Assembly (NCBI GenBank): GCA_024697885.1
Contig: JAILSA010000093.1
Span: 1 to 28,462 of the forward strand
Source of the DNA: Eubacterium sp.
Lineage (GTDB): Bacteria; Bacillota; Clostridia; Lachnospirales; Lachnospiraceae
Direction of reading: 5' to 3'
DNA length: 28,462 bases
The notes below the pieces were generated by a model. It was not told the origin of the DNA. It saw only the letters and a program-made list of their open reading frames with translations, and did no database searches. This document shows, in pieces, positions 5,331 to 24,014 of this stretch (positions are counted from its first letter, which is position 1; each line of letters begins with the position of its first letter). The translations under genes were made by a program, and so were the position numbers.

Positions 5331-5372
5331 AGAGCCATTCCACCCCAAAATTGGATGAGAAGGAGGCTTTGT

Positions 5373-6209
5373 ATGAAGGTTGCTTTTTGGAGCAATGTCC
5401 GGGGAAAATCATGTGTTACAAGCAATCTGGCTTGTATCAGTATTCTATCGTCTATGTTTTCTGAGGAGATGGATCACAGGTCCATTGTCTTTGAAAATCA
5501 TCAGAATTTTATTAATCTTGGCAATTTATTATTCAGCCACAATTCAGAGAATTTTTTGAGAGAAGAAAGTGTTTATAGGGTGAACCGGGGCATGAGTCAG
5601 GTCCTTCGCGCCGTGGAGGAAGGTCAGGTCTATTCGGGAGATATTATTTTTCAAAATGCCAGAGAGTGTTTGGGGGACAGGCTTCTCTACCTACCCAATC
5701 CACCGGGGCTTAATTCCGAGGTGCTAGAGTACCAGATGGATCGGAATTGTCACAAGGTGCTGGGGTACTTAGAGAGGTTTGGCCACAGGGTATTTGTGGA
5801 CACCACGGCGGCTCCTGTCAGGAGTTCCAGGAAGATTTTGCAGGAGGCGGACCTGATTGTGGTCAACCTGGTGCAAAATGAAACCATGTTAGACCAGTTT
5901 TTCAGAAATTATAGGGCCATACGGGAGAAGGCCTTTTACCTGATAGGAAATTATGATGAGAATTCGGTTTTGACCAGAGATTACATTGGAAAAACCTATG
6001 GGATTTCTGAGAGGCAAATCGGCCTGATTCCCCGCCATACTGCCTTTTTGGACGCTGTTTCCTCCGGGGAAATTGTGCCCTTTTTGGAGAGGGGTATGAG
6101 GGGAGAACATGACCCTTTTTGTCAGGAATTTTTTGACTGCTTGAGAGAGACTGTAGATTTGTTTGAGGAGAGCTTAGAGGCTTTTTCCTGCAGGGAGATT
6201 TATGCATGA
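5373..6209 (+). CDS. TadZ/CpaE-like ParA-family ATPase, divergent
   Basis: A 278-residue soluble protein that starts with a ParA/MinD-like nucleotide-binding loop: FWSNVRGKSCVTSNLA lines up with the family pattern KGGVGKTTxxxNLA, keeping GK and NLA but losing the leading 'deviant' lysine and the usual Thr pair. A Walker B-like strand, VFVDTTAAP, follows near residue 143, then LIVVNLVQN. TadZ/CpaE proteins place Tad pilus machines at chosen sites in the cell; the classical ones have an N-terminal receiver-like domain, which is absent here. Start: the ATG at 5373 has AGAAGGAGG seven bases upstream; an in-frame ATG at 5355 lies ahead of that site and is unlikely. Its stop overlaps the next start (ATGA). 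Role inferred mainly from neighbours. Confidence 0.72.
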   Translation: MKVAFWSNVRGKSCVTSNLACISILSSMFSEEMDHRSIVFENHQNFINLGNLLFSHNSENFLREESVYRVNRGMSQVLRAVEEGQVYSGDIIFQNARECLGDRLLYLPNPPGLNSEVLEYQMDRNCHKVLGYLERFGHRVFVDTTAAPVRSSRKILQEADLIVVNLVQNETMLDQFFRNYRAIREKAFYLIGNYDENSVLTRDYIGKTYGISERQIGLIPRHTAFLDAVSSGEIVPFLERGMRGEHDPFCQEFFDCLRETVDLFEESLEAFSCREIYA

Positions 6210-7621
6210 AGAGGTGGAGTAGAAGGTTTTGTTCGGGGCTATTAATCCTGGCCTTAGGAGTGCAGGGGCCGGGAGTTATGGCAAAAGAAGAGACTGTCAG
6301 GGTTTCTAGTTTAGAGGAATTAGAGACCTGGCTTGCAAGGCCGGGAGACCAGGTCTTAGAGCTAGAGAGAAATATTGGAGTTACAAGAACCCTTAAGGTA
6401 AAGGGGACCAAGCTCCTTCGGGGAAGGGGCAGGGAGATTTACCGCCTGGGTCAGTCGGACCTTTTGAGAGTGGCAGGAGCTACTCTGGTTTTGGACAAGG
6501 TGAAAATTTCTGGCAGGAAGAAAAAGGCCAGGGATCGAGCCACTGCCCTGTCTGTGGGAGAGGGAGGCATGGTTCTAATGAAGGGCGGTAGCCTGGAGAA
6601 AAATTACAATGTAGCCGGGGGACCCGCCGTCTGTATTCAGGAGGGGGGAACCTTTGAACTCCAGGGAGGAAGTATAAAAAATAACAGGGCTACAGGCCAG
6701 GGAAGGCGGCTTGGCAGGGATGCCAGAGGAGGCGCGATCCTGAATTTTGGCAAGTGCATTGTCACCTTTGGAAGTCTTAAATCCAACTGTGCCAGGGGAA
6801 TCGAGAAGAATCATAAGGGCTATGGAGGAGTAGGTGGTGCCATCTACAACGCAGGTCAGTGCTATGTGCAAAAGGGAGAGATCAAGAGGAACCAGGCCAG
6901 CAGCGGTGGCGGAGGAATATACAGCAAAAGGGGCAGTCATATCTGGATTCGGGGTGGAAGTATCTTGGATAACACTGCAAAAAAAGGAAAGGACCTGTAT
7001 ATTTTTCCCCAGACCCTGTGGGGGGAGGACAATGGGACAATAGGTGATGTCTACGAATTTAGGAAGGAAAAAAAGCCTAGGGTGAGCCCAAGTCCCGCTC
7101 CCTCTGAGAGGCCGGAACCCAAAAAGGACACAGAAAAAAGTCCCGCCCCCCGGGAGACCAAGGGGCCGACGAGTCCCCCTGAGGCCAGTCCTAAGGCCAG
7201 GCAGGAGGCCCAGAGGGAGGAAGTTTTACAGGGAGAAAAGAGGTATTTTTTTGACTGGGAGGTCAGGAATTTTTCCAGGAGCCAGTGGGCAGAGAGTCTT
7301 GGGGTGGAAGAAGGCTCCATTGGCGGCCAGGAAGGCTTTTTGACCAATCAGGTGGGAGTGTATGAGGCCCTGCTGGAGGGAAAGAATGGCAGGACCTATA
7401 GATTGGAAATTGAAATTGTAAAAGAGGGAGTAGAAGAAGTGAGAGAGAAGGAAGAGGAGATTCGTTTTTGCAAGGAGGGCTCTAGCCAAAGTCCCAGGGA
7501 GACCTGGTTTTTTTCCAGGGAGGACCTAGAGGAAATCAAGGCCTACCTAGAGGAGAGACAGGGGACAAGCCTGGAGGAATTTTGTCAGACCTTAGAGGAC
7601 AAAAGGAGGGAACCGGCGTGA
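6206..7621 (+). CDS. Secreted beta-helix surface protein of the Tad-like operon
   Basis: A 471-residue exported protein. A signal peptide (about 1-26, RRFCSGLLILALGVQG...VMA) is followed by a right-handed beta-helix (about 60-270) whose turns repeat the pattern G-x-[IL]-x-x-N (GGSLEKN, GGSIKNN, FGSLKSN, KGEIKRN, GGSILDN), alternating with GGAILNFG, GGAIYNAG and GGGIYSKRG. This resembles the GGAI / FxxN repeats of polymorphic outer-membrane proteins. A Ser/Pro/Glu/Lys linker (about 290-335) leads to an Ig-like segment (about 345-410) and a short helical end (WFFSREDLEEIKAYLEE). There is no LPXTG motif or C-terminal membrane segment, so anchoring is unexplained. It is sandwiched between the TadZ-like and CpaF-like genes with 4-base overlaps on both sides, suggesting linked expression. 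No enzymatic residues are recognised. Confidence 0.82.
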   Translation: MKRWSRRFCSGLLILALGVQGPGVMAKEETVRVSSLEELETWLARPGDQVLELERNIGVTRTLKVKGTKLLRGRGREIYRLGQSDLLRVAGATLVLDKVKISGRKKKARDRATALSVGEGGMVLMKGGSLEKNYNVAGGPAVCIQEGGTFELQGGSIKNNRATGQGRRLGRDARGGAILNFGKCIVTFGSLKSNCARGIEKNHKGYGGVGGAIYNAGQCYVQKGEIKRNQASSGGGGIYSKRGSHIWIRGGSILDNTAKKGKDLYIFPQTLWGEDNGTIGDVYEFRKEKKPRVSPSPAPSERPEPKKDTEKSPAPRETKGPTSPPEASPKARQEAQREEVLQGEKRYFFDWEVRNFSRSQWAESLGVEEGSIGGQEGFLTNQVGVYEALLEGKNGRTYRLEIEIVKEGVEEVREKEEEIRFCKEGSSQSPRETWFFSREDLEEIKAYLEERQGTSLEEFCQTLEDKRREPA

Positions 7622-8646
7622 ATGAATTTCAAAAAAAATACCTGCTAAAGAGGCAGGATTATGGGGTTTTATTCCCCTATATCACCTCGGAGGAGGTGAC
7701 AGATATTAACTGGAATGGCAAGCAGCTCTGGATTGATGACCTGCAAAAGGGGCGGTTTGTGGCCCCGGAGGTCCTGCCAGAGGTTTTTGTGGAGAGGTTT
7801 GTCATGCTTCTAGCCAATGTGACGGGGATGAATTTTAACCGGACAAACCCTGTTATGGAGGCGGAGACAGAGGAACTTAGAATCAGTGTGGTCCACGAGA
7901 GTGTGGCCAGGTCCGGGGTGACTATTTCCATCCGAAAAATCCCCATGGTAAGGAGGATGACGGAGGAGTCCATGTTGGCCCAGGGGTATTGCTCTGGGGA
8001 GATTTTGGACTTTATGATTAGGTGCATACAGTCCCACTGTTCCCTGGTGATTGCAGGTTTGCCGGGGGTGGGAAAGACAGAACTACTAAAGTTTTTGACC
8101 CAGTATATCCCCTCCAAGGAGAGGGTGATTACCATTGAGGATGTCTTGGAGATTCATTACCCATCCCTCAATCCGGACAAGGATTGCATTGAGATGAAGG
8201 TGGCGGAAAATTTTTCCTATGCCCAGGCCATTAAGGCCAGCCTTCGCCAGTTTCCCAAGTGGATTATCCTGTCGGAGGCCAGGTCTAGGGAGGCCAGGCA
8301 ACTTTTGGAGTCTCTGTCCACGGGAGCCTGTTCCATCACCACCCTTCACGCCCAGGGAATCAGTGATATTCCGGTGCGCATGAAAAATATGGTGGGAGAT
8401 TTAGAGGGGGATAAGCCGGTGGATGAGGCCATTTATCGCTACATTGATGTGGGGATTTTGGTCAGCGGCAAGCCGGACTCCCAGGGACGGATGGTGAGAA
8501 AAATAGAGGAGATCGGGGTCTTTGAATACCTAGAGGGCCAAGAGGAGGCCACTAGATTGACCATGCTGGCGGAGGGAGGAAGATTTTTCCCGGAGAGAAT
8601 GCCAGAATCCATGAGATTGCGCTTGAGTCAAAATGTAGCGGGATAG
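7618..8646 (+). CDS. CpaF/TadA-family secretion ATPase
   Basis: A 342-residue cytoplasmic motor ATPase of the VirB11/CpaF type, which drives pilus assembly or protein export from the inner face of the membrane. It has Walker A GLPGVGKTE, the acidic box ITIEDVLEIHY, Walker B IILSEARS and the histidine box TTLHAQG. I take GTG at 7618 as the start: it overlaps the preceding stop as GTGA and has AAAGGAGGG upstream; an ATG at 7582 in the same frame would lie inside the previous gene without a ribosome site. It is slightly shorter than typical CpaF proteins, which carry a longer N-terminal region. Confidence 0.94.
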   Translation: MNEFQKKYLLKRQDYGVLFPYITSEEVTDINWNGKQLWIDDLQKGRFVAPEVLPEVFVERFVMLLANVTGMNFNRTNPVMEAETEELRISVVHESVARSGVTISIRKIPMVRRMTEESMLAQGYCSGEILDFMIRCIQSHCSLVIAGLPGVGKTELLKFLTQYIPSKERVITIEDVLEIHYPSLNPDKDCIEMKVAENFSYAQAIKASLRQFPKWIILSEARSREARQLLESLSTGACSITTLHAQGISDIPVRMKNMVGDLEGDKPVDEAIYRYIDVGILVSGKPDSQGRMVRKIEEIGVFEYLEGQEEATRLTMLAEGGRFFPERMPESMRLRLSQNVAG

Positions 8647-8656
8647 GAGTTTTTGG

Positions 8657-9820
8657 ATGATAACAATGATAGGATGGACTGTGTTTTCCCTGGCAGCCTA
8701 TGGGCTTTTTGGCCTCTATTGGTATGCCAGCCTGGCCCTTTTTGTCCTCGGCCTGCCCCTGATTTGGGTGGCAGAGGGAGTGAAACATAAGGGCCTTTGG
8801 GAGAGAGAAAAATTTCACGAGAGGATGGATTATTTAGAGCAGCTTCTGTGTTCTTACCGGCGGCAGGGGATGGTTAGTTTGGCCCTTAAGGACTGTTTGG
8901 AAATCTTTGCCGGCCGGCCTTTAGAGAACTTTTTGCAGGAGGCCATAAAGGGCTTAGAGGAAGGACAGGAGGAGAAGGCCTTCTCTGGTCTGGAAAAGAA
9001 TTTTGGCAGTCGCCGCATGGTCTTAATCCATGATTTTTTGTTGGATTTAGAGAGGCGGGGAGGTCAGGGAGACAGGGCCCTGGATATATTACTGACGGAC
9101 CTGCAGAAGTTAAAAAACAGGGTGCTCTTGCGACAGGGGGCCAAGGAGAGGTTAGTGGATGCCTACCAAAAGTCCATGATTTTGGCTGGACTTTTGGCAT
9201 ATTGTTCCGGCATCCTTGTACCTTCTTCTATTCTCCCTCAAATCCGGGGAAATGCCTGGTATCAGGCTGGCTTTGTCCTTCTGAGTCTTGTCTGCCTCTT
9301 GGGGAATTATTTGGCCAAAGTCTACGGCTATAGGGGCTGGCAGGAGGAGGAAGCGGCCAGGGGAGATTGGAAGGTAAGAAGGGCCTATTCCTTATTTTTG
9401 CTGAGGGTCTGTGTCAATTTGACCTTTCTTAACTCCTACCAGGCCATTGAGGCTGCCAAGAGCCCGGGACTTGAGAAGGAAAAGGCCAAGCTTTTGGAGG
9501 ATTTAAATGGGGACCCGGGAAGCGTCCGACCCTTTATGGAATTTGCCAGGACTTTGGGAAGGCCAGAGGTGGAGACGGGAATGCGTTTACTCTACGCTGT
9601 GAGGGAGCACGGACTAGAGGGCTTAGAGGGGCAGATTTATGGGCTCTTAGACCACTGCAACCTGGTGATGGAGGACCTGGAGAAGAATTCGTCCAAGGCA
9701 AGTCTTTTGCCCCTCCAGCTCATAAGGCAGGTTCCCATGGGGCTTGCCACCTTGAAAATCGGACTGGACCTGTTTCTTTTTTTGGGGATTTCCATGCAGG
9801 AACTCCAATTATTTTTATAG
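8657..9820 (+). CDS. TadB/TadC-like (T2SF) membrane platform protein
   Basis: A 387-residue membrane protein. Hydrophobic segments lie at about 3-40 (probably two helices), 172-222 (two helices) and 368-385. Between them are cytoplasmic helical stretches typical of type II secretion F domains (LEQLLCSYRRQGMVSLALKDCL..., GGQGDRALDILLTDLQKLKNR, and a second one at about 255-350). Such proteins form the platform on which the CpaF ATPase acts. Canonical Tad loci have two such genes, tadB and tadC; here there is only one, and its second half also looks like a weak F domain. The ATG at 8657 follows TAGGAG. Confidence 0.78.
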   Translation: MITMIGWTVFSLAAYGLFGLYWYASLALFVLGLPLIWVAEGVKHKGLWEREKFHERMDYLEQLLCSYRRQGMVSLALKDCLEIFAGRPLENFLQEAIKGLEEGQEEKAFSGLEKNFGSRRMVLIHDFLLDLERRGGQGDRALDILLTDLQKLKNRVLLRQGAKERLVDAYQKSMILAGLLAYCSGILVPSSILPQIRGNAWYQAGFVLLSLVCLLGNYLAKVYGYRGWQEEEAARGDWKVRRAYSLFLLRVCVNLTFLNSYQAIEAAKSPGLEKEKAKLLEDLNGDPGSVRPFMEFARTLGRPEVETGMRLLYAVREHGLEGLEGQIYGLLDHCNLVMEDLEKNSSKASLLPLQLIRQVPMGLATLKIGLDLFLFLGISMQELQLFL

Positions 9821-9832
9821 GAGGAAAGGAAT

Positions 9833-10255
9833 ATGAAGGGTGAGCATTTGGGGGAGTGGCTGGTTTTGATTCTCATAGGAGGAATCTTTTTGGGAGGCCT
9901 GCAATTCCTTCAAAACAATTGGATTAGCTTTGGCCTGGTGGAGGACAGTAAAAGGGTCAGTCTGTCCACAAGCTTTTTGCCCAAGGGGGAGCCGGTGATG
10001 GACTGCCTAGAGGCAAAGTGTGTAAGGGGTGAGGAGTTTTGCCCCAAAAAGCTTCTTAAGGCCAGGGATTTTGACGGCAGGGACCTGACAGACCAGGTGG
10101 AGATAAGAGATGAGTCCGGAAGGGTCTGGAGGCAGGGTGATGTCCTTGAAAAGGAGGGCTGCTATCAACTTTCGGCCCGGGTGAAAAGCCCCGTCACAGG
10201 ACTTTTGGCTGAGAAAAAATGGACTTTTTTGGTGGATGGGAGGTGCCTGATATGA
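9833..10255 (+). CDS. Small membrane-anchored protein with Ig-like outer domain
   Basis: 140 residues: one N-terminal membrane segment (about 9-27, VLILIGGIFLGGLQFL) and an outer part that looks like a small bacterial Ig-like fold (DFDGRDLTDQVEIRDESG..., then KEGCYQLSARVKSP). Four cysteines (in DCLEAKCVRGEEFC and GCYQ) could form disulphides. It is not a Flp pilin: there is no G/E-containing prepilin cleavage motif followed by a hydrophobic helix. The ATG at 9833 follows TAGGAGGAAAGG. Its stop overlaps the next start (ATGA). Function unknown, probably a structural or accessory part of the surface machine. Confidence 0.72.
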   Translation: MKGEHLGEWLVLILIGGIFLGGLQFLQNNWISFGLVEDSKRVSLSTSFLPKGEPVMDCLEAKCVRGEEFCPKKLLKARDFDGRDLTDQVEIRDESGRVWRQGDVLEKEGCYQLSARVKSPVTGLLAEKKWTFLVDGRCLI

Positions 10256-10584
10256 ACCTGTCCAACTTAATTCATCAGTTTATTATTATTTTTATGATTC
10301 TTATGTCCATGTGGATCGGGATTACCTATGTGACCCAAAATATTCAATATACCCGTGCAAAGCAGGTGCATGATGAGATCAGCTTCCGGCTGGGAAATAA
10401 TGATTTTGACCCGGAGACCATAAAGGAGTGCCGGGATTTGGCCAGCCAGTGTGGCTACGATCTCACCATAGACCTCTATGAGCAGGGCGGGGAGGGGGGA
10501 GCCAGAATTATTCTGGACATGACCTATCAGTTTCCCGTATTTCAAAATACAAAAAGGTATAGCATTGAGGGCTATGCCAGCTAG
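10252..10584 (+). CDS. TadE-like / DUF4320-like single-pass protein
   Basis: 110 residues with an N-terminal membrane helix (about 8-27, FIIIFMILMSMWIGITYV), a helical stem and a C-terminal strand region ending TYQFPVFQNTKRYSIEGYAS. The layout, with the closing GYA, resembles DUF4320/TadE-like pseudopilins found in Firmicute Tad loci (recognition from memory). The ATG at 10252 has GGGAGG upstream and shares ATGA with the preceding stop. A minor pilin or scaffold role is inferred. Confidence 0.68.
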   Translation: MNLSNLIHQFIIIFMILMSMWIGITYVTQNIQYTRAKQVHDEISFRLGNNDFDPETIKECRDLASQCGYDLTIDLYEQGGEGGARIILDMTYQFPVFQNTKRYSIEGYAS

Positions 10585-10592
10585 GAGGATTT

Positions 10593-10958
10593 TTGAAGGG
10601 AATGATTATATCTATGGTGGGAGTGACTTCCATCATTTTATTACTGACGATTCAGGGGGCAGTCAATATGGATTCTAAGAATCAGCATGACCTGAGGGCC
10701 GGGCTGACCCTGGCCATGACCCAGACCATGAATCAATTAAAGCAGGAAAAAATGCAGGAATCAAACCAGTATATCGCCCTTTTGATGGAGGGCCTGATTA
10801 GCCGTTTGGACACGGATATGGACCTGACCCTTAAGGTTCATTCCTTTGACCCGGACAAGAAGGAGCTAGAGGTGGAAGCTATTGGCTCCTATGTCCTGCC
10901 GGGCAATGTGGAGCGCAGGGTGTCGGTTCGGAGGCGGGCCATCTTGGAGGGACACTGA
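10593..10958 (+). CDS. Small single-pass protein of the Tad-like operon
   Basis: 121 residues: N-terminal membrane helix (about 4-22, MIISMVGVTSIILLLTIQG), then helical and strand segments (DMDLTLKVHSFDPDKKELEVEAIGSYVLPGN). Another pseudopilin-like layout. The start is uncertain: TTG at 10593 is only four bases from AGGAGG (10583-10588), while ATG at 10602 is 13 bases away. Function unknown; placed in the machine by its position. Confidence 0.66.
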   Translation: MKGMIISMVGVTSIILLLTIQGAVNMDSKNQHDLRAGLTLAMTQTMNQLKQEKMQESNQYIALLMEGLISRLDTDMDLTLKVHSFDPDKKELEVEAIGSYVLPGNVERRVSVRRRAILEGH

Positions 10959-10986: not shown

Positions 10987-13900
10987 TTGAAAAATTGGAT
11001 AAAAACCTGGAAAAAACAGCTGGCATTTTTGCTGGCCCTGGTGGTACTTGTGGGAATTTGTCAGCCGGCGGGAACTGCCCGGGCGGCATTCTCTATGAGA
11101 GTTTATGTGCCACGACGAGTCTTGCACTATGCCAAGACAGGAAACTTAGTTTATACAAAATTTGGCGATGGGGAAATGATCGCCAGTTATTATGCCTCAG
11201 AGGTAGGTGGTCTGAGTCTGACAGAGGACCAGGTGGGGTTTGACTCGGGCAACAACAATTACATCAAATTAGATGGAAACATATCTATACAAAATATCAA
11301 TACATTTTATATAGATAAGGAGGGAAGGCTGGTAATAAACGACCAGACCCTTCCTACCTTTGAAGTCAGTGGAGCCAATTTTATCAAGCCTCTTGGCTAT
11401 ATTATTTATCTGATCAAGGACAAGTATATTAACAAGACTCTGGCAACCCTGACCCCAGAGAGTTTTATGGCCAGTCTGGATTCAAGCCTCTTTCAGAGTG
11501 GGGAGGGAATTGCCATTGGCATAATTATGCCTGACCTTATTAAGAACAGCTTTTATTTTCAGGGCGGCAAGTTAAAAAAGGATATTCGGACTCAGGTTTA
11601 TTTTCCCCTTTATGTCAAGGGAAGTCAGGTGATAGACCCAGACGAAGGTGGGGGATTTTACCATGAGGCAAGGAATTTTAATCAGGTGGACGAACTCTAC
11701 AACGCCGAGGGATATTATTACAAGAACAGGCCTAGAACTGCCCCTGTGCCAGAACGAGTGGGCTATGATTTTCAGGGTTGGAGTCTGACAGATGAGGGCA
11801 TGATTCTCACCAGAGATGAATTTCTCGAGGCCAGCAATTCCGGTGTGGATCAGAAGTTTCTTGCCAACTGGAAGGCCAAGACCTATGAGGTCAGCCTCCA
11901 GACCAATGGGGGAAGCTGTCAACGACAATCCTGTCAGGTGGACTTTGACCATGCCTACGGTAATCTGCCGGTGCCGGAGAAAAAAGGTTATGAATTTGCG
12001 GGCTGGTATACGAAAAAGACGGGGGGTGAATTGATTACCTCCACAAGCATCTGCAAAACCCCAGGTGACCACAGCCTCTATGCCCTGTGGAAAACCAAAC
12101 AGTACACCGTTACCTGTACAGATTATTTGGAGACGGGAGAGATTTTGGGAAAGAGTGAGTGGCAGGCGGACTACCAGACCAAGCAGTCTGGAGCCAGTGC
12201 GGGCCAGGATCTGATGATCGGAAAGTACTACAAAGAAACCCAGTATTTATCAGATACTACTGCTGTAGTAGACGATACGGGCTGCCAGGTTTCACGAGTT
12301 TTTATCTCCTATGAGGGAAGTGGCTTAGATGGGTCCTACCTTCAGGACCAGGTGCTGACTAAGGCAGGGGAAAAGGTTTCTGAGGTCAGGCTGCCAGAGG
12401 AGGTAAAGGCCATTGGACCCAAGGCCTTTGACAACTGTCAGAAGATGAAAACCATCACCCTTCCCTACAGTGTGGAGGCTATTGGTGAGGAGGCTTTTGC
12501 CACAGCCAATAATCTCCAGGAAATTGTGGTGAAAAATCCCCATTGTCGATTTGAAGGAAGCCATATTTGCAAATCTACCTGTAAGCTTGTGGGCTTTAGC
12601 GGGTCCACCACAGAGGCCTATGCCAGGTCCCATCAGATCATGTTTGAGCCTATTCAAGTGATTGGCAAGGATTTTTACCAGAATGAAGGGGAAATCAAGG
12701 AGATTAGCCTGCCCCAGGATGTGAAGGAAATTCAGGAGGGGGCCTTTAAAAATTGTACCAGTCTGGAAAAAATTGATCTGGGGGGTGTGGAAAAAATTGC
12801 GGACGGTGCCTTTCAGTCCACGGGCCTAGAGAGGGTAGTGATGCCAGAGGGCCTAAAGGAGATTGGGCAGGCGGCCTTTGCAGACTGTCCCAACCTGAAG
12901 GAAGTAGATTTTTCTGCCTGCAAGGAGGATGTAAAGATTGGGGATTACTGCTTCTGGAATGACGGCGCCCTGGAGCGCCTGATTGAGGGGCAGGGAGAGC
13001 TCCTTGACCTGGTGAGAACCAGCATACCAGAACACACCATCCTAATCTGCTATGCAGGAAGTCGTCTGGCCCATTTTGCCGACCTCTATAACAGGCCTTG
13101 TATATTGATTTTTGGCCAGGGCAAGGAAAAATCTACCAGTCTCGGACTAGGAGGTCTGAGGGTAAGCAATTTGCAGGGGCTGATTTTGGGGCAGGCAGTG
13201 GATCAAATTGAGTCCGACGCCTTTTCGGAAACTAAGACCCTGCCCCAGGGAATTGTGGTAAAAAATCCCAACTGCAAGATTCCGGATCAAAGGAGATTTT
13301 TCCCTGAGGAAACACCGCTGACTTCTTGGTCTAAGTCCAGTCTGAAGGATTATTGCAGCCAGTATGAGATGACTATGAATAAGTTAGGAGAGTCCAACCA
13401 AATTCAGGCCAGGGACCAGGACCAGATTGTGGCTCACTTCTATGCCTATGTGGGCATGCCTATGCCAAGGCTTCCAATCCTTACCAAGGACAAGCACACC
13501 TTTTTGGGGTATGGCTTGGGGGAAGAAGTCTATTATGATATTCATGGAAGGTGTCTAATGGATTGCTGGGAGGGACCGGATGATTTGACGGGAGACCACT
13601 GCCTTCAGGTCCTGTGGCAGTCTAATGAAACTGGGGAAAACCCCGTTCCAAGCGCCAGTCCAGAAGCCGGGGAAAAACCTACTCCAAATCCGGAGAATCC
13701 CGGGGAGAAGAGTGGTGAATCTACAAAAGTAGAACAGAGTAAAACGGCAAATCCTTCCGTTCAAAGAGCCAAGTCTGGCCAGGAAAACAGCCGTCAGGAT
13801 CAGGACCAATCCAAAATCGTCATTACCTTTTCCGATGTGGCAAGGAATGACGGGGCCAATGTGGGAGGCCTTGTGAAGAAAAAGAAGGGGATTACCTACT

Positions 13901-14286
13901 GCCTTTACAAGGCCAGTTACACGGCCAGTGTCCTCTCGGTCTCTAGCAAGAAAAAGAAGATAAAGATTGGAAATACAGTATCTTACAAAGGTAGAAAATA
14001 CAAGATTACCGGCCTGGAAGAGGGGGCTATGAGAAAGAATAAGAGGGTCAAGAGTCTGACCCTTGGAAAGCATATTAACCGGCTGGGCAGGAAGTGCTTC
14101 TACAAATGTAGTAAACTTAAGAAAATAAGGATATATTCCAGGAAAATCAAGAAAATAGGGAAAAAATGCTTTCAGGGTATAGGTAAGAGATGCCAGATTT
14201 ATCTGCCAAAGAAAGTTAAAAGTAAATATAAGAAGTTGTTTAGAAAAAAGGGCCAGGGAAAAAAAGTGGCCATCCGATTTATTTGA
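10987..14286 (+). CDS. Large secreted InlB-repeat / BspA-type leucine-rich-repeat surface protein
   Basis: A 1099-residue exported protein. Order: signal peptide (about 1-34), a unique region (35-250), two InlB/Listeria-Bacteroides-type beta-grasp repeats (about 255-297 and 300-370, with GYDFQGWS and GYEFAGWYTKKTGG), BspA-type leucine-rich repeats (about 465-690: LPEEVKAIGPKAFDNCQKM, LPYSVEAIGEEAF, LPQDVKEIQEGAF, MPEGLKEIGQAAF), a further degenerate part, a Ser/Pro/Glu-rich linker (about 878-940) and a very lysine-rich LRR cap (945-1099). BspA-like repeats bind host proteins or other bacteria. There is no LPXTG motif. I chose TTG at 10987 because GGAGG lies eight bases upstream and the signal peptide begins there. 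It is the last and largest gene of the Tad-like operon, 28 bases after the small protein, so it may be a cargo or tip adhesin. Confidence 0.88.
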   Translation: MKNWIKTWKKQLAFLLALVVLVGICQPAGTARAAFSMRVYVPRRVLHYAKTGNLVYTKFGDGEMIASYYASEVGGLSLTEDQVGFDSGNNNYIKLDGNISIQNINTFYIDKEGRLVINDQTLPTFEVSGANFIKPLGYIIYLIKDKYINKTLATLTPESFMASLDSSLFQSGEGIAIGIIMPDLIKNSFYFQGGKLKKDIRTQVYFPLYVKGSQVIDPDEGGGFYHEARNFNQVDELYNAEGYYYKNRPRTAPVPERVGYDFQGWSLTDEGMILTRDEFLEASNSGVDQKFLANWKAKTYEVSLQTNGGSCQRQSCQVDFDHAYGNLPVPEKKGYEFAGWYTKKTGGELITSTSICKTPGDHSLYALWKTKQYTVTCTDYLETGEILGKSEWQADYQTKQSGASAGQDLMIGKYYKETQYLSDTTAVVDDTGCQVSRVFISYEGSGLDGSYLQDQVLTKAGEKVSEVRLPEEVKAIGPKAFDNCQKMKTITLPYSVEAIGEEAFATANNLQEIVVKNPHCRFEGSHICKSTCKLVGFSGSTTEAYARSHQIMFEPIQVIGKDFYQNEGEIKEISLPQDVKEIQEGAFKNCTSLEKIDLGGVEKIADGAFQSTGLERVVMPEGLKEIGQAAFADCPNLKEVDFSACKEDVKIGDYCFWNDGALERLIEGQGELLDLVRTSIPEHTILICYAGSRLAHFADLYNRPCILIFGQGKEKSTSLGLGGLRVSNLQGLILGQAVDQIESDAFSETKTLPQGIVVKNPNCKIPDQRRFFPEETPLTSWSKSSLKDYCSQYEMTMNKLGESNQIQARDQDQIVAHFYAYVGMPMPRLPILTKDKHTFLGYGLGEEVYYDIHGRCLMDCWEGPDDLTGDHCLQVLWQSNETGENPVPSASPEAGEKPTPNPENPGEKSGESTKVEQSKTANPSVQRAKSGQENSRQDQDQSKIVITFSDVARNDGANVGGLVKKKKGITYCLYKASYTASVLSVSSKKKKIKIGNTVSYKGRKYKITGLEEGAMRKNKRVKSLTLGKHINRLGRKCFYKCSKLKKIRIYSRKIKKIGKKCFQGIGKRCQIYLPKKVKSKYKKLFRKKGQGKKVAIRFI

Positions 14287-17371: not shown

Positions 17372-17404
17372 ATTTTAGCAAGTTTTTTGATTGGAGGTAT
17401 AGCT

Positions 17405-19588
17405 TTGGGGATTTTGATTGATCGGGAACAGCAGGTTTATCATCTGCAGACCCAAAATACAAGCTATATTATAGGGGTGATCCAGGACAAGTACCTGGGA
17501 CACATTTACTGGGGGAATAAAATTCGGACACCGGATGGCAAAAGATGCCTTTTGAGACGGTGGTCCTGCTTTGATGTGATTGAGCCAGACAAAAGTGAGG
17601 GGGCTTTTTCACTAGATTACATTTGTCGGGAATATCCCAGCGGAGAAGCAGACTACAGGGCGCCGGCCTTTATGTTGGAATTTGAGGACGGCAGCAGGCA
17701 GACAGAGTTTGTTTTTGAGAGCGTTGAGGTATTGAAAAAAAAGCCCAAGCTCTCTGGTCTACCTAGCCTCTTGGCAGAGGAGGGGGAGACAGAGACTTTG
17801 CGGATTAGCCTGGTGGACAAACTCAGTCAGGTTTATCTTCATCTCTACTACTGCATTTATCCGGACTACGATGTGATAAGCCGGCATGTGGTGGTGGAAA
17901 ATCAGGGAGAACAGAAGGTAAAAATCCACCGACTTATGAGTGGAGCCCTGGATTTTGACCGGGATGATTTGGAACTTTTGACCCTGCCAGGAGCCTGGGG
18001 CAGAGAGCGCCAGATGGAGAGGGGACCTGTCCGCAAGGGCCAGATGACTCTCACAAGCAGAAGGGGAGCAAGCAGCCACCAGATGAATCCATTTATGGCC
18101 CTGCTAGAGCCGGGAGCCTCGGAAAATCAGGGAGAAGTTTATGGACTGAACCTGGTTTACAGCGGCAACTTCACAGGAATTGTGGAGGGGGACCAGCGGG
18201 GAAAAACAAGAGTTATGCTAGGTTTTGGCAATGAGGATTTTTCCTGGTGCCTAGAGCCTGAGAAGACCCTGACTAGCCCAGAATTGGTTATGGTACATAG
18301 CAAAGAGGGCCTGGGAGGCATGTCTCGCATTTACCACAATATTTATCGGGACCGATTGGTTCGCGGTACTTATAAAAAGAAGGAGAGGCCAGTTTTAGTC
18401 AACAACTGGGAGGCCACCTATTTTGATTTTGACCAGGAAAAGATTTTGGATTTGGCAGACCGGGCCGCTGATTTGGGCCTGGAGTTACTGGTCTTAGATG
18501 ATGGTTGGTTTGGCAAGAGAAACGACGACAAGACCTCTCTTGGGGACTGGTTTGTCAATGAGGAAAAGTTGCCAGGGGGAATTACAGGTCTGGCCCAAAA
18601 GGTAGGAGAAAAGGGCCTGGGCTTTGGTCTCTGGTTTGAACCGGAGTCTATTTCCAGGGAAAGTCGCCTCTACAAGCGCCACCCGGACTGGTGCATCCAT
18701 GTGAAGGACCGCTACCAGACAGAGTGTCGCAACCAGCTCCTTTTAGACCTTTCCAGGGAGGATGTCTGTGACTACATAATCGGTGTGCTAGACCAGATTT
18801 TGACAGAGGCCCCTATTAGCTATGTCAAGTGGGATATGAATTCTCACATGTCCAATCTGGGTTCTGCTCAACTTGAGGCGGACAGGCAAAGAGAGTTGCC
18901 TCACCGCTACATGCTGGGTCTTTACCGGGTTTTAGAAGAGGTTACAGGCCGCCATGAGGATGTGCTCTTTGAGAGCTGTTCTGGCGGGGGAGGCAGGTTT
19001 GACCCCGGCATGCTCTACTACATGCCACAGGTTTGGACCAGCGACGACACGGACCCAATCGAGAGGGTTTATATCCAGTACGGAACCAGCCTTGTCTATC
19101 CGCCTTCCACCATGGGAGCTCATGTATCTGCAGTGCCAAACCACCAGAGTGGCAGGGTTACACCCCTAGAGACCAGGGGCAATGTGGCCATGAGTGGACT
19201 CCTGGGATATGAACTGGATTTGGGAAAATTTTCCCAGGAAGAAGAGGAAAAAGTAAAGGAGCAAATCCAGTTTTATAAGGAAAATAGAAAGCTGATTATG
19301 GAGGGAGACCTCTATCGAATAAAGAACCCATTTGAGAGTTCCTACGGTGCCTGGATGATTTGTTCTAGGGACAAGAAGGAGGTCCTGGTGACAGCGGTTT
19401 GCATGAGGGGGGAGGTCAATGGAAAAACCTGCCGCCTTAAGCTTGTGGGCCTGGATCCAGATTTGGATTATAAGGACATGGAAAATGGGGAGATTTATCA
19501 GGGAGACGAACTGATTGAAATCGGTCTTTTAGCAGACCTTTATGGGGATTATGAGAGCAAGGTTTGGAAATTTCAGGGGATGTATTAG
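17405..19588 (+). CDS. GH36 alpha-galactosidase
   Basis: 727 residues, no signal peptide, so a cytoplasmic enzyme that removes alpha-1,6-galactose from raffinose-type sugars or melibiose. An N-terminal beta-supersandwich domain (about 1-300) is followed by the TIM barrel. Diagnostic motifs: LVLDDGWFGKRNDD, LGFGLWFEPE, YVKWDMN (nucleophile Asp), ESCSGGGGRFDPGMLYY and VWTSDDTDP (acid/base Asp). GH36 enzymes of this length are common in Firmicutes. TTG at 17405 is chosen as start because GGAGG lies seven bases upstream (17393-17397); an upstream TTG at 17387 precedes the ribosome site. First gene of an operon with the GlgX-like protein 12 bases downstream. Confidence 0.95.
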   Translation: MGILIDREQQVYHLQTQNTSYIIGVIQDKYLGHIYWGNKIRTPDGKRCLLRRWSCFDVIEPDKSEGAFSLDYICREYPSGEADYRAPAFMLEFEDGSRQTEFVFESVEVLKKKPKLSGLPSLLAEEGETETLRISLVDKLSQVYLHLYYCIYPDYDVISRHVVVENQGEQKVKIHRLMSGALDFDRDDLELLTLPGAWGRERQMERGPVRKGQMTLTSRRGASSHQMNPFMALLEPGASENQGEVYGLNLVYSGNFTGIVEGDQRGKTRVMLGFGNEDFSWCLEPEKTLTSPELVMVHSKEGLGGMSRIYHNIYRDRLVRGTYKKKERPVLVNNWEATYFDFDQEKILDLADRAADLGLELLVLDDGWFGKRNDDKTSLGDWFVNEEKLPGGITGLAQKVGEKGLGFGLWFEPESISRESRLYKRHPDWCIHVKDRYQTECRNQLLLDLSREDVCDYIIGVLDQILTEAPISYVKWDMNSHMSNLGSAQLEADRQRELPHRYMLGLYRVLEEVTGRHEDVLFESCSGGGGRFDPGMLYYMPQVWTSDDTDPIERVYIQYGTSLVYPPSTMGAHVSAVPNHQSGRVTPLETRGNVAMSGLLGYELDLGKFSQEEEEKVKEQIQFYKENRKLIMEGDLYRIKNPFESSYGAWMICSRDKKEVLVTAVCMRGEVNGKTCRLKLVGLDPDLDYKDMENGEIYQGDELIEIGLLADLYGDYESKVWKFQGMY

Positions 19589-19600
19589 AAAGGAGTAGCT

Positions 19601-21439
19601 ATGTCATTACTAGATGGAGTAAAACTGCAAAAATGCGAGGCCTTTCCTCCAGGAGTTGAATATGTGAAGGGACTGGGCGTGACGGTTTCTGTCTGGAAGC
19701 GGGATGCCAAGAAATGTTATCTTCGACTTTTTCGCGAGAACAAGATGCTGGAGAAAATTCCAATGTTTTCCATGGAAGAAGAGGGGATGGCAGATGTTTT
19801 TACCCTTTTTCTCAAGGGAAATGAGGTAAAGGACAAAATCAACGGCCTGGAGTACGACTTTGTGGCCGACGGTGAGGTCTTTTTGGACCCCTTTGTAAAG
19901 CAGGTGGCAGGCAGAGATTCCTTTGGCAAAAAGCACGGAAAAACCAGGGGACTCATTTGTTTTGAAAGCTTTGATTGGTCCGGGGAAAACCGCAGGAGGC
20001 TTACGGTTCAGGAAATGGTTCTCTACCAGTGCCATGTGAGAGGTTTTACAAAGCATGCCAGCTCTGGAGTCAGCTACCCGGGAACATTCCTTGGTATGGA
20101 GGAAAAAATCCCTTATCTAAAGGACTTAGGAGTCAACACCCTCTTGCTCTTGCCAATTTATGATTTTGATGAGTGCATGAAGGACGAGGAGGGAAATTCC
20201 CTTGGCAAGGTCAACTACTGGGGTTATGGAAAGGACGCCTTTTACTTTGCCCCAAAGGCCAGCTACTGCAGTCAGACCATGTGTGCGGCCAGAGAACTAA
20301 AACATCTGATTAAGGCCCTCCACCAAAACGACATGAATATTATTTTGGATATGTATTTTGTGGGCCAAAACCCAGAGTTTATTACCCAGTGTTTGCGCTA
20401 TTATGCCCTGGAGTTTCATGTGGATGGATTTCGCATTAACCAGGACAGCGTAGATGCCTCATGGTTTACCATGGACCCTATTTTGTCCCACTGCAAGTAT
20501 ATAGGCAGTGGTTGGGGTGACCAGCCGGTGCCTCGGGGTAAGGAGCGCTACTTGGAAATGAACGATGGCTTCTTGGTGGATGCCAGAAGATTTTTAAAGA
20601 GTGATGAGGGTCAGACCGAGAGTTTCTACTACCGATTCCGGGAGCAGAGAGAGGGCGTGGGCCAGATTCACTATATCACCAGTAACAACGGTTTTACCCT
20701 GCGAGATCTGATTTCCTACGATGTCAAACACAACGAGGACAACGGGGAGCGAAACCAGGACGGTAGCCAGATGAACTACAGCTGGAACTGCGGGGCAGAG
20801 GGTTATAGCCGGAAGAAAATTGTTCTAAAGACCAGAAAGCAGCAGGAGAGAAATGCTCTTGTTATGCTTCTTCTTGGCATGGCAACCCCTATGATTTTGG
20901 CGGGGGATGAGTTTGGAAATTCCCAGAAGGGCAATAATAATGCCTACTGCCAGGACAATATGATTACCTGGCTGGATTGGCGACAGGTGGAAAAAAATAG
21001 GGACACCCTGGACTATGTAAAAATGCTTCTAAAATTTCGGAGGGAGCATCCCCTTTATCACTCTGAACGAAAACTTACGGGAGCAGATTTTTCCGGACTG
21101 GGAGCGCCAGATGTTTCCTGCCACGGAAGAGAGCCTTGGACGGCAGATTTTTCCTACTACAGCAGGGAACTTGGAATCTTGTATTTTGGCAGTTACTACG
21201 GCAGTCAGAGTTTGTATTTTGCCTTTAATTTTCACTGGGACAAGCACGAATTTTACCTGCCAAATGTCCAGGCAGACAGCCAGTGGGAACCCCTGTTTTC
21301 CACAGCGGAGGGGGCGGCAGACAAGGTGGAGGATGACAAGTATATGATGGCCCCAAGGTCCATTGCAGTCTTCCAGAAAAAGGTGATTCCAAAGCCTGTT
21401 CAGACCAAGAAAAAAACTAGAAAAAGAAAGGTGAAGTAG
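19601..21439 (+). CDS. GlgX-like GH13 debranching-enzyme homologue lacking catalytic residues
   Basis: 612 residues with the layout of a glycogen-debranching/isoamylase GH13_11 protein: an N-terminal CBM48-like domain (about 12-105), a barrel opening with VNTLLLLPIYDFDE and NYWGYGKDAFYFAP, and the family-typical block PMILAGDEFGNSQKGNNNAY followed by WLDW. The active site is gone: region I is DMYFVG instead of D-x-x-x-NH, region II is GFRIN (nucleophile Asp to N280), region III is GSGW where AEPW is expected (acid/base Glu to S303), and region IV is SNNGFT instead of AHDGFT (Asp to N363). Some 35-40 residues normally found between regions I and II are also missing. The frame is intact. No signal peptide; the C-terminus is Lys/Arg-rich. 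A binding or regulatory role is inferred. AAAGGAG precedes the ATG. Confidence 0.9.
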   Translation: MSLLDGVKLQKCEAFPPGVEYVKGLGVTVSVWKRDAKKCYLRLFRENKMLEKIPMFSMEEEGMADVFTLFLKGNEVKDKINGLEYDFVADGEVFLDPFVKQVAGRDSFGKKHGKTRGLICFESFDWSGENRRRLTVQEMVLYQCHVRGFTKHASSGVSYPGTFLGMEEKIPYLKDLGVNTLLLLPIYDFDECMKDEEGNSLGKVNYWGYGKDAFYFAPKASYCSQTMCAARELKHLIKALHQNDMNIILDMYFVGQNPEFITQCLRYYALEFHVDGFRINQDSVDASWFTMDPILSHCKYIGSGWGDQPVPRGKERYLEMNDGFLVDARRFLKSDEGQTESFYYRFREQREGVGQIHYITSNNGFTLRDLISYDVKHNEDNGERNQDGSQMNYSWNCGAEGYSRKKIVLKTRKQQERNALVMLLLGMATPMILAGDEFGNSQKGNNNAYCQDNMITWLDWRQVEKNRDTLDYVKMLLKFRREHPLYHSERKLTGADFSGLGAPDVSCHGREPWTADFSYYSRELGILYFGSYYGSQSLYFAFNFHWDKHEFYLPNVQADSQWEPLFSTAEGAADKVEDDKYMMAPRSIAVFQKKVIPKPVQTKKKTRKRKVK

Positions 21440-21445
21440 TCTTTC

Positions 21446-21889
21446 ATGATTGTTTTAAAAATAGAATCCGTCAAGGAGTTTATGGCCTGTCTCTTTCAGG
21501 GAGATATGTTTGACCGCTTCCACTTAAGAAATTGTCAGGTCAGGACTTTTACCAATTTTTCCTGTGATGGAAGCCTTTACGGGGACTGGTTTGACACGGA
21601 GGAAAAGCCGGAGGAGAGTCAGGTGGTTTGGAGCCAGATCAAACCCATAATCTTTGGATTGATTCGGGGCAACAAGCCCCCTCTTATGATGAATTTGGAA
21701 TTTTGCCACCACATGTCCAACGGGGACACAGGGGCTATTCGGGTTCAGTACGAAAAGGGGGAACTCCTTGTATATACAGGTTATGCCCAGAAGGAATTTA
21801 GTTTGGACAAGTCCAAACAGGAGACCTGGGATGACCAGTGCAAGGAATTTATTAAGAAAAATGAAATTGTTAGCACTCTTTTGGAATGA
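21446..21889 (+). CDS. Small conserved cytoplasmic protein (DUF5721-like)
   Basis: 147 residues with no signal peptide or membrane segment. The N-terminus (MIVLKIESVKEFMACLF...FDRFHLRNCQVRTFTNFSCDG) and a central SQIKPIIFGLIRGNKPPL resemble DUF5721 proteins of Lachnospiraceae as I remember them; function is unknown. It begins six bases after the GlgX-like gene, so it probably shares the alpha-galactosidase transcript. Its last codons and stop (21887-21889) lie inside the CIRCE element that controls htpG. Confidence 0.75.
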   Translation: MIVLKIESVKEFMACLFQGDMFDRFHLRNCQVRTFTNFSCDGSLYGDWFDTEEKPEESQVVWSQIKPIIFGLIRGNKPPLMMNLEFCHHMSNGDTGAIRVQYEKGELLVYTGYAQKEFSLDKSKQETWDDQCKEFIKKNEIVSTLLE

Positions 21890-21932: not shown

Positions 21933-21974
21933 ATGTTCTAGCAAAAGAATTTGAAAGAAGTTGGAGGTAATATC

Positions 21975-24014
21975 ATGACACAAGAGCAAGGTAATTTAGC
22001 AATTAATTCAGAAAATATTTTTCCAATTATCAAGAAGTGGTTGTATTCCGATCACGATATTTTTCTCAGAGAGGTAGTCAGCAACGGATGCGACGCCATC
22101 ACCAAATTAAAGAAGCTTTCCCTTATTGGAGAGGCCAATCTGCCTGAAGATTACAAGGCTAAGATTGAGGTAGAAGTTAATCCAGAGGAGAAGACCCTGA
22201 CCATTCGAGACAACGGACTGGGAATGACAGCCGATGAGGTCAAGGAGTATATCAATCAGATCGCCTTTTCTGGCGCCACAGATTTCCTTGAGAAGTACAA
22301 AGATAAGACAAATGAAGAGCAGATTATTGGACACTTTGGACTGGGATTCTATTCCATCTTTATGGTTTCCGATTCTGCAGAGATCAATACACTTTCCTAC
22401 AAGGAAGGGGCAGAGGCTGTTCACTGGGAGTCCGACGGAGGCCTGACCTTTGAGATGGACGGAGCAGACAAGGACAGTGTGGGAACAGAGATTATCCTTC
22501 ACTTAAATGAGGACAGCTACGAGTTCGCCAACGAGTACCGTGTCCGCGAGGTTTTGGAAAAGTACTGTTCCTTTATGCCAGTGGAGATTTTCTTGTCCAA
22601 GGCAAATGCAGAGCCTGAGTACGAGACCATTCCTATGGAGGAGCTTTTGGAGACCGATACCCTCATTGAGGAGATTGTGGAGGAGCCAAAGGAAGAGGAC
22701 AAGGAAGAGGACAAGGAAGGCGAAGAGAAAGAGGAGCCTTTGAAGAAGGCTAAGATTCTCAAGAGACCTGTTTCTGTCAGCGACATTTCACCTCTTTGGA
22801 ACAAGCATCCAAACGAGTGCACCGACGAGGAGTACAAGGCCTTTTACCGCAAGGTATTTAATGACTACAGAGAGCCTTTGTTCTGGATCCATTTGAACAT
22901 GGATTATCCATTTAACTTAAAGGGAATTCTCTACTTCCCAAGAGTAAATCTGGAGTATGAAAATGTAGAGGGAATGATTAAGCTCTACAATAACCAGGTA
23001 TTTATTGCAGATAATATTAAGGAAGTAATTCCTGAGTTCCTTATGCTTCTCAAGGGAGTTATTGACTGCCCAGACCTGCCATTAAATGTCAGCCGAAGCG
23101 CCTTGCAAAACGATGGTTTTGTCAAGAAGATTTCTGACTACATTACCAAGAAGGTGGCAGACAAGTTGTCAGGCCTTTGCAAGACAGACCGTGAGAACTA
23201 TGAGAACTACTGGGATGACATCAGTCCATTTATCAAATTTGGTTGCCTGAGAGACGAGAAATTCAAGGATAAAATCAAAGATTATGTTCTCTTTAAGGAT
23301 TTAGATGACAAGTATTCTACTTTGACAGAGTACCTTGATACCCTGCCTGAGCCAGTTGAGGTAGTAGAGGAGGGCAAGGAAGAGGAAGACTCTGAGAACA
23401 AGGAGAAACCTCGCAAGGTAATTTACTATACCACAGACCTTCAGCAGCAGAGCCAGTATATCAACATGTTCCGCGACCAGGAATTGAATGCGGTGGTTTT
23501 GACTGAGAAAATTGACCAGCCATTTGTAACTGCCCTAGAGGCGGGAGATGAAGGAGTTCGCTTCCAGCGCATTGACGCAGAGTTGACGGACGACTTTAAG
23601 GATGAGGCTTCCGAGGAAGAACTTAAGGAAGAGACAGAGACCTTAAAGGAACTCTTTAAGAAGGCCACTGGCAAGGAAAATCTTGAGGTCAAGGTAGAGA
23701 AACTTAAGGACGAGAAGGTATCCTCTGTAATCACTATGTCAGAGGAGAGCCGCAGAATGCAGGATATGATGAAGATGTATGCCATGAATGGAATGGGTGG
23801 CATGGATATGGGTGACATGGGTCAGACTTTGGTACTCAACTCCAACAACGCCCTGGTTCAGTACCTTCTTGCCAACAAAGAGGGAGATAAGACAGATCTT
23901 TTCTGTAAGCAACTTTACGATTTGGCTCTGATTAGCAACCAGCCACTAGCTGCGGACAAGATGACAGAATTCATCCAGAGAAGTAATGAGATCATGATGC
24001 TTCTTACCAAATAA
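21975..24014 (+). CDS. htpG: Hsp90-family molecular chaperone HtpG
   Basis: 679 residues; an ATP-dependent cytoplasmic chaperone. The N-terminal GHKL ATPase site is complete: REVVSN (E33, N37), RDNGLGM (D79), GHFGLGFYS (119-127) and GTEI (T171). The middle domain carries NVSRSALQ (the catalytic-loop arginine region). The C-terminal dimer domain ends with NEIMMLLTK. Unusual: an acidic Glu/Lys/Asp linker (about 232-260) between N and middle domains, another acidic insert (about residues 465-485), and a Met/Gly-rich stretch (MYAMNGMGGMDMGDMG) near residue 605-622. ATG at 21975 is chosen because GGAGG lies seven bases upstream; the frame is open to a TTG at 21951 that precedes that site. Confidence 0.97.
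   Translation: MTQEQGNLAINSENIFPIIKKWLYSDHDIFLREVVSNGCDAITKLKKLSLIGEANLPEDYKAKIEVEVNPEEKTLTIRDNGLGMTADEVKEYINQIAFSGATDFLEKYKDKTNEEQIIGHFGLGFYSIFMVSDSAEINTLSYKEGAEAVHWESDGGLTFEMDGADKDSVGTEIILHLNEDSYEFANEYRVREVLEKYCSFMPVEIFLSKANAEPEYETIPMEELLETDTLIEEIVEEPKEEDKEEDKEGEEKEEPLKKAKILKRPVSVSDISPLWNKHPNECTDEEYKAFYRKVFNDYREPLFWIHLNMDYPFNLKGILYFPRVNLEYENVEGMIKLYNNQVFIADNIKEVIPEFLMLLKGVIDCPDLPLNVSRSALQNDGFVKKISDYITKKVADKLSGLCKTDRENYENYWDDISPFIKFGCLRDEKFKDKIKDYVLFKDLDDKYSTLTEYLDTLPEPVEVVEEGKEEEDSENKEKPRKVIYYTTDLQQQSQYINMFRDQELNAVVLTEKIDQPFVTALEAGDEGVRFQRIDAELTDDFKDEASEEELKEETETLKELFKKATGKENLEVKVEKLKDEKVSSVITMSEESRRMQDMMKMYAMNGMGGMDMGDMGQTLVLNSNNALVQYLLANKEGDKTDLFCKQLYDLALISNQPLAADKMTEFIQRSNEIMMLLTK

Follow-up and report, generated by a model that had tools for sequence, protein, structure and literature searches.

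What does a homologue of the glycogen-debranching enzymes do in a bacterium once its catalytic residues have gone? The question is raised by a stretch of 28,462 nucleotides from Eubacterium sp., a member of the Lachnospiraceae (GenBank assembly GCA_024697885.1, contig JAILSA010000093.1, positions 1 to 28,462 of the forward strand; hereafter the window), which encodes a GlgX/isoamylase-like protein of 612 residues. We use the name PG for the Lachnospiraceae family of short-segment, triad-less GlgX-type proteins that includes it. Our answer, to which we give a probability of about one half, is that PG is a dead protein of the GH13_11 group (glycoside hydrolase family 13, GH13) that holds alpha-glucan non-catalytically in the manner of plant ISA2, with no required ISA1 or GlgX partner. 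The gene and the parts of it that bear on catalysis are:

19601..21439, + strand: PG, a GlgX/isoamylase-like pseudoenzyme of 612 aa, ATG start (homologue search and alignment)
19655..19873, + strand: CBM48-like N-terminal module, residues 19-91 (PF02922 at 20.2 bits, cut-off 22.4; beta strands in the models)
20348..20368, + strand: eroded region I, residues 250-256, with Asn-His replaced by V254-G255 (alignment)
20366..20419, + strand: site of the gap between regions I and II, residues 256-273, about 44 residues missing (19-20 residues in 221 PG, 64 in 29 canonical proteins)
20438..20440, + strand: N280, at the place of the nucleophile Asp (alignment)
20507..20509, + strand: S303, at the place of the acid/base Glu (alignment)
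20684..20689, + strand: N362-N363, at the place of the His-Asp pair (alignment)

An earlier reading of this DNA, made from the sequence only, had recognized a GlgX/isoamylase fold from end to end, and this is borne out by a match to TIGR02100, the NCBIfam GlgX model, over the length of the protein (E = 1.5e-91, 307.5 bits) and by its best sequence matches in the PDB, which are plant and algal isoamylase 1 and GlgX/TreX. The score does not reach the equivalog cut-off of that model (640.9 bits). Pfam finds the alpha-amylase barrel, with matches to CBM48 and to the isoamylase C-terminal domain below their cut-offs; taken together, Pfam and the structural models give the domain order and fold of GH13_11, namely a CBM48-like module, a barrel and a C-terminal domain. 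The start context, AAAGGAGTAGCTATG, provides a good ribosome site, as that reading had also held, and the genome from which the window comes (79.5% complete) contains a single match, the window protein itself.

In alignment with E. coli GlgX, residues N280, S303, N362, N363, V254 and G255 stand opposite D336, E371, H442, D443, N265 and H266, and the four active-site losses and the Val-Gly pair of region I are exactly those the sequence-only reading had named. The E. coli segment from H266 to H329 is 64 residues long in 29 of 29 canonical proteins, 19-20 in 221 of 221 PG and 20 in the window protein; the loop between regions I and II is shortened, as had been noticed, although the loss amounts to about 44 residues by alignment and not to the 35-40 first estimated. 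With the triad replaced here and complete in none of 221 relatives, the standard GH13 mechanism appears to be unavailable, and on its residues the window protein is a catalytically dead GH13_11 protein by the known mechanism. At the former catalytic places, which are highly variable within PG, no conserved acid has taken over from those lost; the idea of a new conserved catalytic pair there was rejected, since the catalytic positions drift across the family.

These losses are shared by a large group of proteins. A database search returned 7986 related proteins, of which the best 120 were used, together with the best 80 of 580 named genome loci and further genome loci; the alignment set of 250 consists of 251 rows minus a C-terminal fragment (L140|0) and a copy of the window protein (L001), plus the window protein. 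Among the best 120 of the 7986, 99 have Asn and 10 have Asp at the nucleophile position, 109 have Asn and 10 have Asp at that of the third Asp, and none has the full triad. Aligned with E. coli GlgX, the 250 GlgX-type proteins fall into 29 canonical ones (28 from Lachnospiraceae, and E. coli), all with the full triad, the region I Asn-His and the 64-residue segment, and 221 PG, with no intermediates between them. Of the triad residues, 155 PG have none, 66 have one or two, and none has all three. The nucleophile Asp survives in 3 of the 221; a Glu at the acid/base place (31) and the third Asp (38) occur together in 6 and never with the nucleophile, acid/base assignments being uncertain in PG because region III is variable. 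Orthologues with intact residues, named at the outset as part of what would count against the proposal, number 0 among the 221.

In trees of 86 representatives one branch separates PG from the canonical proteins (SH-aLRT 99, or 94 without the catalytic columns), and the family has one origin in them. The trees were made by a quick method, with canonical GlgX taken from Lachnospiraceae and E. coli only and the root set on E. coli, and the status of PG as a clade depends on that root. Over 65 PG pairs with dS between 0.15 and 2, which share sequences and are not independent, the ratio of nonsynonymous to synonymous change (dN/dS, omega) has a median of 0.079 and a range of 0.039-0.218; only two canonical pairs were comparable. 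The test set beforehand, recurrence of the same losses in orthologues under low dN/dS, thus came out in favor of the proposal, and the claim that selection has kept the gene holds with it.

PG is present in at least 123 of 150 genomes of the family Lachnospiraceae, a lower bound, because nine genomes with weak matches (G030, G048, G053, G055, G062, G074, G109, G131 and G147) were scored as lacking it; 17 further genomes are without any match. In the genus of the window, 38 of 39 genomes match, including 26 of 26 good ones, with an extra canonical-type match only in G155-G158. In a search of the order (295 genomes, E 1e-70), the listed matches outside the family, in 18 genomes, all start at profile position 257-261; this is the pattern of canonical GlgX matches, and they were placed by position alone. 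PG thus presents itself as an old Lachnospiraceae family whose fold has been kept under strong purifying selection. That it might be a decaying gene without function is hardly credible: PG branches are longer than those of canonical GlgX, and an in-frame stop was flagged inside the matched stretch of four PG matches (G123, G061, G120 and G068), but an omega this low does not belong to a decaying gene, and together with a distribution over at least 123 of 150 genomes it led us to reject a functionless pseudogene.

If the cutting site has been dropped, what has been retained? The most telling part is a "border lobe" made of two stretches, whose limits we set here:

20717..20803, + strand: border lobe part 1, residues 373-401 (conservation; low model confidence at 371-400)
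20927..20956, + strand: border lobe part 2, residues 443-452, KGNNNAYCQD (conservation)

Conservation was calculated on 189 dereplicated PG, since some of the 250 proteins are the same gene drawn from two collections. The 29 canonical proteins share 184 positions conserved to at least 95%, and PG retains 62 of these at 90% or more. The retained positions cluster in E. coli 444-540, the loops after beta 7 and beta 8, where 32 of 41 are kept against 30 of 143 elsewhere (p = 3e-11), or 30 of 105 elsewhere once positions missing from PG are removed (p = 7e-8), for a range that was picked after inspection of the data. Within this βα7/βα8 lobe, N378 is found in 221 of 221 PG, W395 in 205 and N445 in 220. 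In other words, the alignment depicts a family that drops the cutting site and keeps the lobe near-invariant.

Two bodies of work on active enzymes give these residues a possible meaning. In maize ISA1, according to PMC12510319, a secondary glucan site (SBS2) lies partly on the border lobe, W578 touches bound glucan, and variants at W578, N561, N628 and R504 had no detectable activity and distinct ratios of soluble to insoluble glucan. By equal spacing alone, W578, N561 and N628 correspond to W395, N378 and N445 of the window protein, and the place of R504 is not conserved in PG; the spacings of -17 and +50 hold in rice and Arabidopsis alike, and that of -74 (R504) agrees with rice but differs by one residue in Arabidopsis. 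For S. venezuelae GlgX, PMC9530166 lists acarbose contacts W222, Y224, H271, D342, E378, W380 and H449 at the -1 sugar, with E470, N534, Y536 and R212 in addition, and describes an ExR(X)6R motif in the N-domain of c-di-GMP-regulated GlgX. Five of these contacts are kept in PG (W222, Y224, E470, N534 and Y536, as W207, Y209, E383, N447 and Y449 in window numbering), and D342 and E378 are lost. Residues 373-401 belong to the best conserved stretches of PG, and yet no other inner part of the model has lower confidence. A thought raised by the low confidence of the first model, that the lobe orders on binding, was dropped when residues 440-454 became firmer with 98 sequences in place of 48, leaving 371-400 alone low. 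The basic C-terminal tail of the window protein (charge +5 or more) is not a general feature of the family, being found in 52 of 221 PG and 1 of 29 canonical proteins.

Does PG need a working partner? Among the 150 genomes, canonical GlgX was found in 46 (E 1e-90), type I pullulanase above its cut-off in 36, and GDE_C in 27. Of the 123 genomes with PG, 80 are without canonical GlgX, 60 of these are also without type I pullulanase, and 58 are without GDE_C as well. Since 80 of 123 lack it, an obligate partnership with canonical GlgX was rejected. The sequence-only reading had also offered an allosteric partner of an active amylase, and this is weakened by the same 80 of 123 and by the 58 of 123 that are without all three families, amylases of other kinds lying outside the search. 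A looser association, in which PG is a non-catalytic regulatory subunit that binds and tunes canonical GlgX, pullulanase or another glucan enzyme as ISA2 does ISA1, strikes us as quite unlikely. PG does accompany canonical GlgX in 43 of the 46 genomes that have it, and is present in 80 of the 104 that do not (Fisher p 0.02, with no correction for kinship), and the two genes are near one another in two genomes: in G126 (L281 5810-11738) canonical GlgX, ABC-F and PG lie in one same-strand run followed by TraX-like and luxS genes, and in G133 (L280 2358-7992) canonical GlgX and PG are convergent, less than 2 kb apart and separated by a ketoacyl-ACP synthase III-like gene. This adjacency was noticed in passing, no systematic search having been made, and the many PG genomes without any of the three enzymes speak against such a subunit.

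Those 58 genomes, 56 of which have GlgA, hold none of the three debranching families sought, and they lend some color to another possibility, that PG retains enzymatic activity through another chemistry built on conserved acids such as E383, D436/E437 or D496. E383 (99%) and D496 (98%) are indeed conserved in PG and not so in the canonical GlgX examined here. We nevertheless consider it very unlikely, given the absence of conserved replacements at the old catalytic places and the fact that other GH13 or GH31 enzymes, which were not searched for, could debranch.

Our preferred explanation remains that PG grips glucan without cutting it. A glycogen-binding scaffold, one of the roles suggested by the sequence-only reading, offers the best fit to which residues are kept, and we infer from them glucan binding and a non-catalytic part in glycogen handling. 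PG would hold alpha-glucan chains by two surfaces, the border lobe, which is a secondary glucan site in plant ISA1, and what is left of the former cleft (W207, Y209, E383, N445-N447 and Y449). Bound to chains near branch points, it would cover these or present them to the cell's own glycogen synthase, branching enzyme or phosphorylase. Its mode of action would resemble that of plant ISA2, with different glucan sites kept and no ISA1 or GlgX partner required. As a more speculative extension, possible but doubtful, the border lobe may be a glucan-organizing module independent of catalysis, the GlgX of Lachnospiraceae having lost its active site once and early, and most genera may now shape or guard glycogen without a debranching partner.

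Several observations weigh against this explanation. W395 is missing in 16 of 221 PG; of the acarbose contacts, H271 is gone, the place of W380 is 49% Trp, that of H449 is 34% His, and R212 could not be mapped; and residues 371-400 remain at a model confidence (pLDDT) of 52-57. The lobe is equally conserved in canonical GlgX, and PMC12510319 proposes that ISA1 requires SBS2 for catalysis, so conservation of the lobe in PG may be structural or inherited, although service to catalysis could explain the lobe in the canonical enzymes and not in PG. GlgA is found in 25 of the 27 genomes scored as lacking PG, and PG is therefore not needed for glycogen synthesis; GlgA is moreover near universal (145 of 150), so its co-occurrence with PG proves little, and it was not found at 1e-60 in three PG genomes (G000, G042, which is 95% complete, and G064). 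Finally, no glycogen gene stood out among the annotated neighbors of PG (ABC-F, DUF5721, DUF5662, htpG, CNNM, luxS, gltX and others of that type), many neighbors being unannotated, and this speaks against a glycogen operon.

In the window, the gene order is GH36, PG, DUF5721, htpG:

17387..19588, + strand: GH36 alpha-galactosidase, upstream (PF02065, 549.5 bits; adjacency not conserved)
21446..21889, + strand: DUF5721 gene (PF18988, 98.5 bits)
21951..24014, + strand: htpG (HSP90), downstream (PF00183)

Between the GH36 stop and the start of PG lie 12 nt, and between the PG stop and the start of DUF5721 lie 6 nt. An operon with the alpha-galactosidase had been taken as an argument for function; the same-strand neighbor is there, but GH36 lies directly upstream of PG in only 3 of 81 loci (the window, L031 and L037), and as a sign of a shared pathway we rejected it because it fails outside near relatives. 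The 81 loci are the window and 80 others, with genes called by a simple open reading frame picker that may choose frames on the wrong strand and with only representatives annotated. Their commonest neighbor clusters are ABC ATPases (60, a merged cluster), DUF5721 (33), htpG (25) and CNNM (23), and in other lineages PG stands beside gltX, uvrD and a periplasmic binding protein, DUF5662, luxS, or dnaG and a sigma-70 gene. Neighbors of this housekeeping type, varying between lineages, and a DUF5721 gene shortly downstream of PG in 33 of 81 loci, are what might be expected had the fold been recruited outside glucan metabolism, with the lobe binding a protein or small-molecule partner linked, for example, to the ABC-F, DUF5721 or HtpG genes. 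We judge this somewhat unlikely, since such a role has no need of the several glucan-contact residues that are retained. DUF5721 is found in 138 of the 150 genomes, and 10 of the 12 without a match have PG; a strict tie between the two was rejected on that count. The profile match of the DUF5721 gene in the window is split, with positions of about 80-103 unmatched, and similar splits occur in G097, G108 and G134.

How, then, should a glucan-holding PG be classed? Plant ISA2 is described in PMC12510319 as a non-catalytic GH13_11 paralogue that has lost its catalytic residues and changes sequence at a raised rate, has an extra N-terminal beta-sandwich, keeps SBS1, is without the SBS2 sequence, and binds ISA1. 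Going by that account, PG resembles it in fold, lost catalytic residues, long retention and raised rate of change. PG differs in beginning with the CBM48-like module, which, because its match starts at residue 19, leaves no room for a further N-terminal domain; in keeping the border-lobe residues, including the SBS2 Trp; in the residues missing between regions I and II; and in occurring mostly in genomes without canonical GlgX. From bacterial GlgX/TreX (TIGR02100, GH13_11) it is set apart by the absent triad and region I Asn-His, the short segment and the score below cut-off. PG is therefore a member of neither, and we rate it a variant among pseudo-isoamylases; on the best reading it arose independently of plant ISA2 and retained other parts. 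The heavy chains of amino-acid transporters, 4F2hc and rBAT, likewise use a GH13-like fold without catalysis; unlike PG, they are membrane-anchored animal proteins of other GH13 groups.

We noticed no description of the PG family in a literature search over openly licensed papers (CC0, CC BY or CC BY-SA). The available part of PMC10395257 mentions two glgX homologues in Blautia obeum without further detail, and that of PMC5716241 a Butyrivibrio hungatei glgX2 of 648 aa, which fits PG by length, the only property compared. "Glycogen debranching protein" and "glycogen operon protein" are among the few source names attached to the best 120 relatives (P0009, P0109 and P0110), and where PG is annotated as a debranching enzyme, metabolic reconstructions of Lachnospiraceae may credit a step impossible by the known mechanism. 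PG probably binds or shapes glycogen and does not cut it. It amounts to a natural experiment in bacteria on a question from plants, namely which regions of an isoamylase remain important once cutting is lost, and the answer suggested by 221 PG sequences includes the lobe hit by maize sugary1 missense alleles.

Elsewhere in the window, positions 5355-10958 hold a type II/IV secretion ATPase (7582-8646) and several open reading frames without a Pfam match, which could be a pilus or secretion cluster; some of these genes have relatives that recur upstream of PG at other loci. Next to it, 10987-14286 encodes a 1099-aa protein with BspA-type leucine-rich repeats and a Listeria-Bacteroides repeat domain, perhaps surface-exposed. 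Another GH13 protein, matched by the alpha-amylase catalytic domain at 161.5 bits, adjoins a GGDEF-EAL protein at 506-2284 and 2199-4316; because the called frames overlap by 86 nt, one of the two starts is probably too early.
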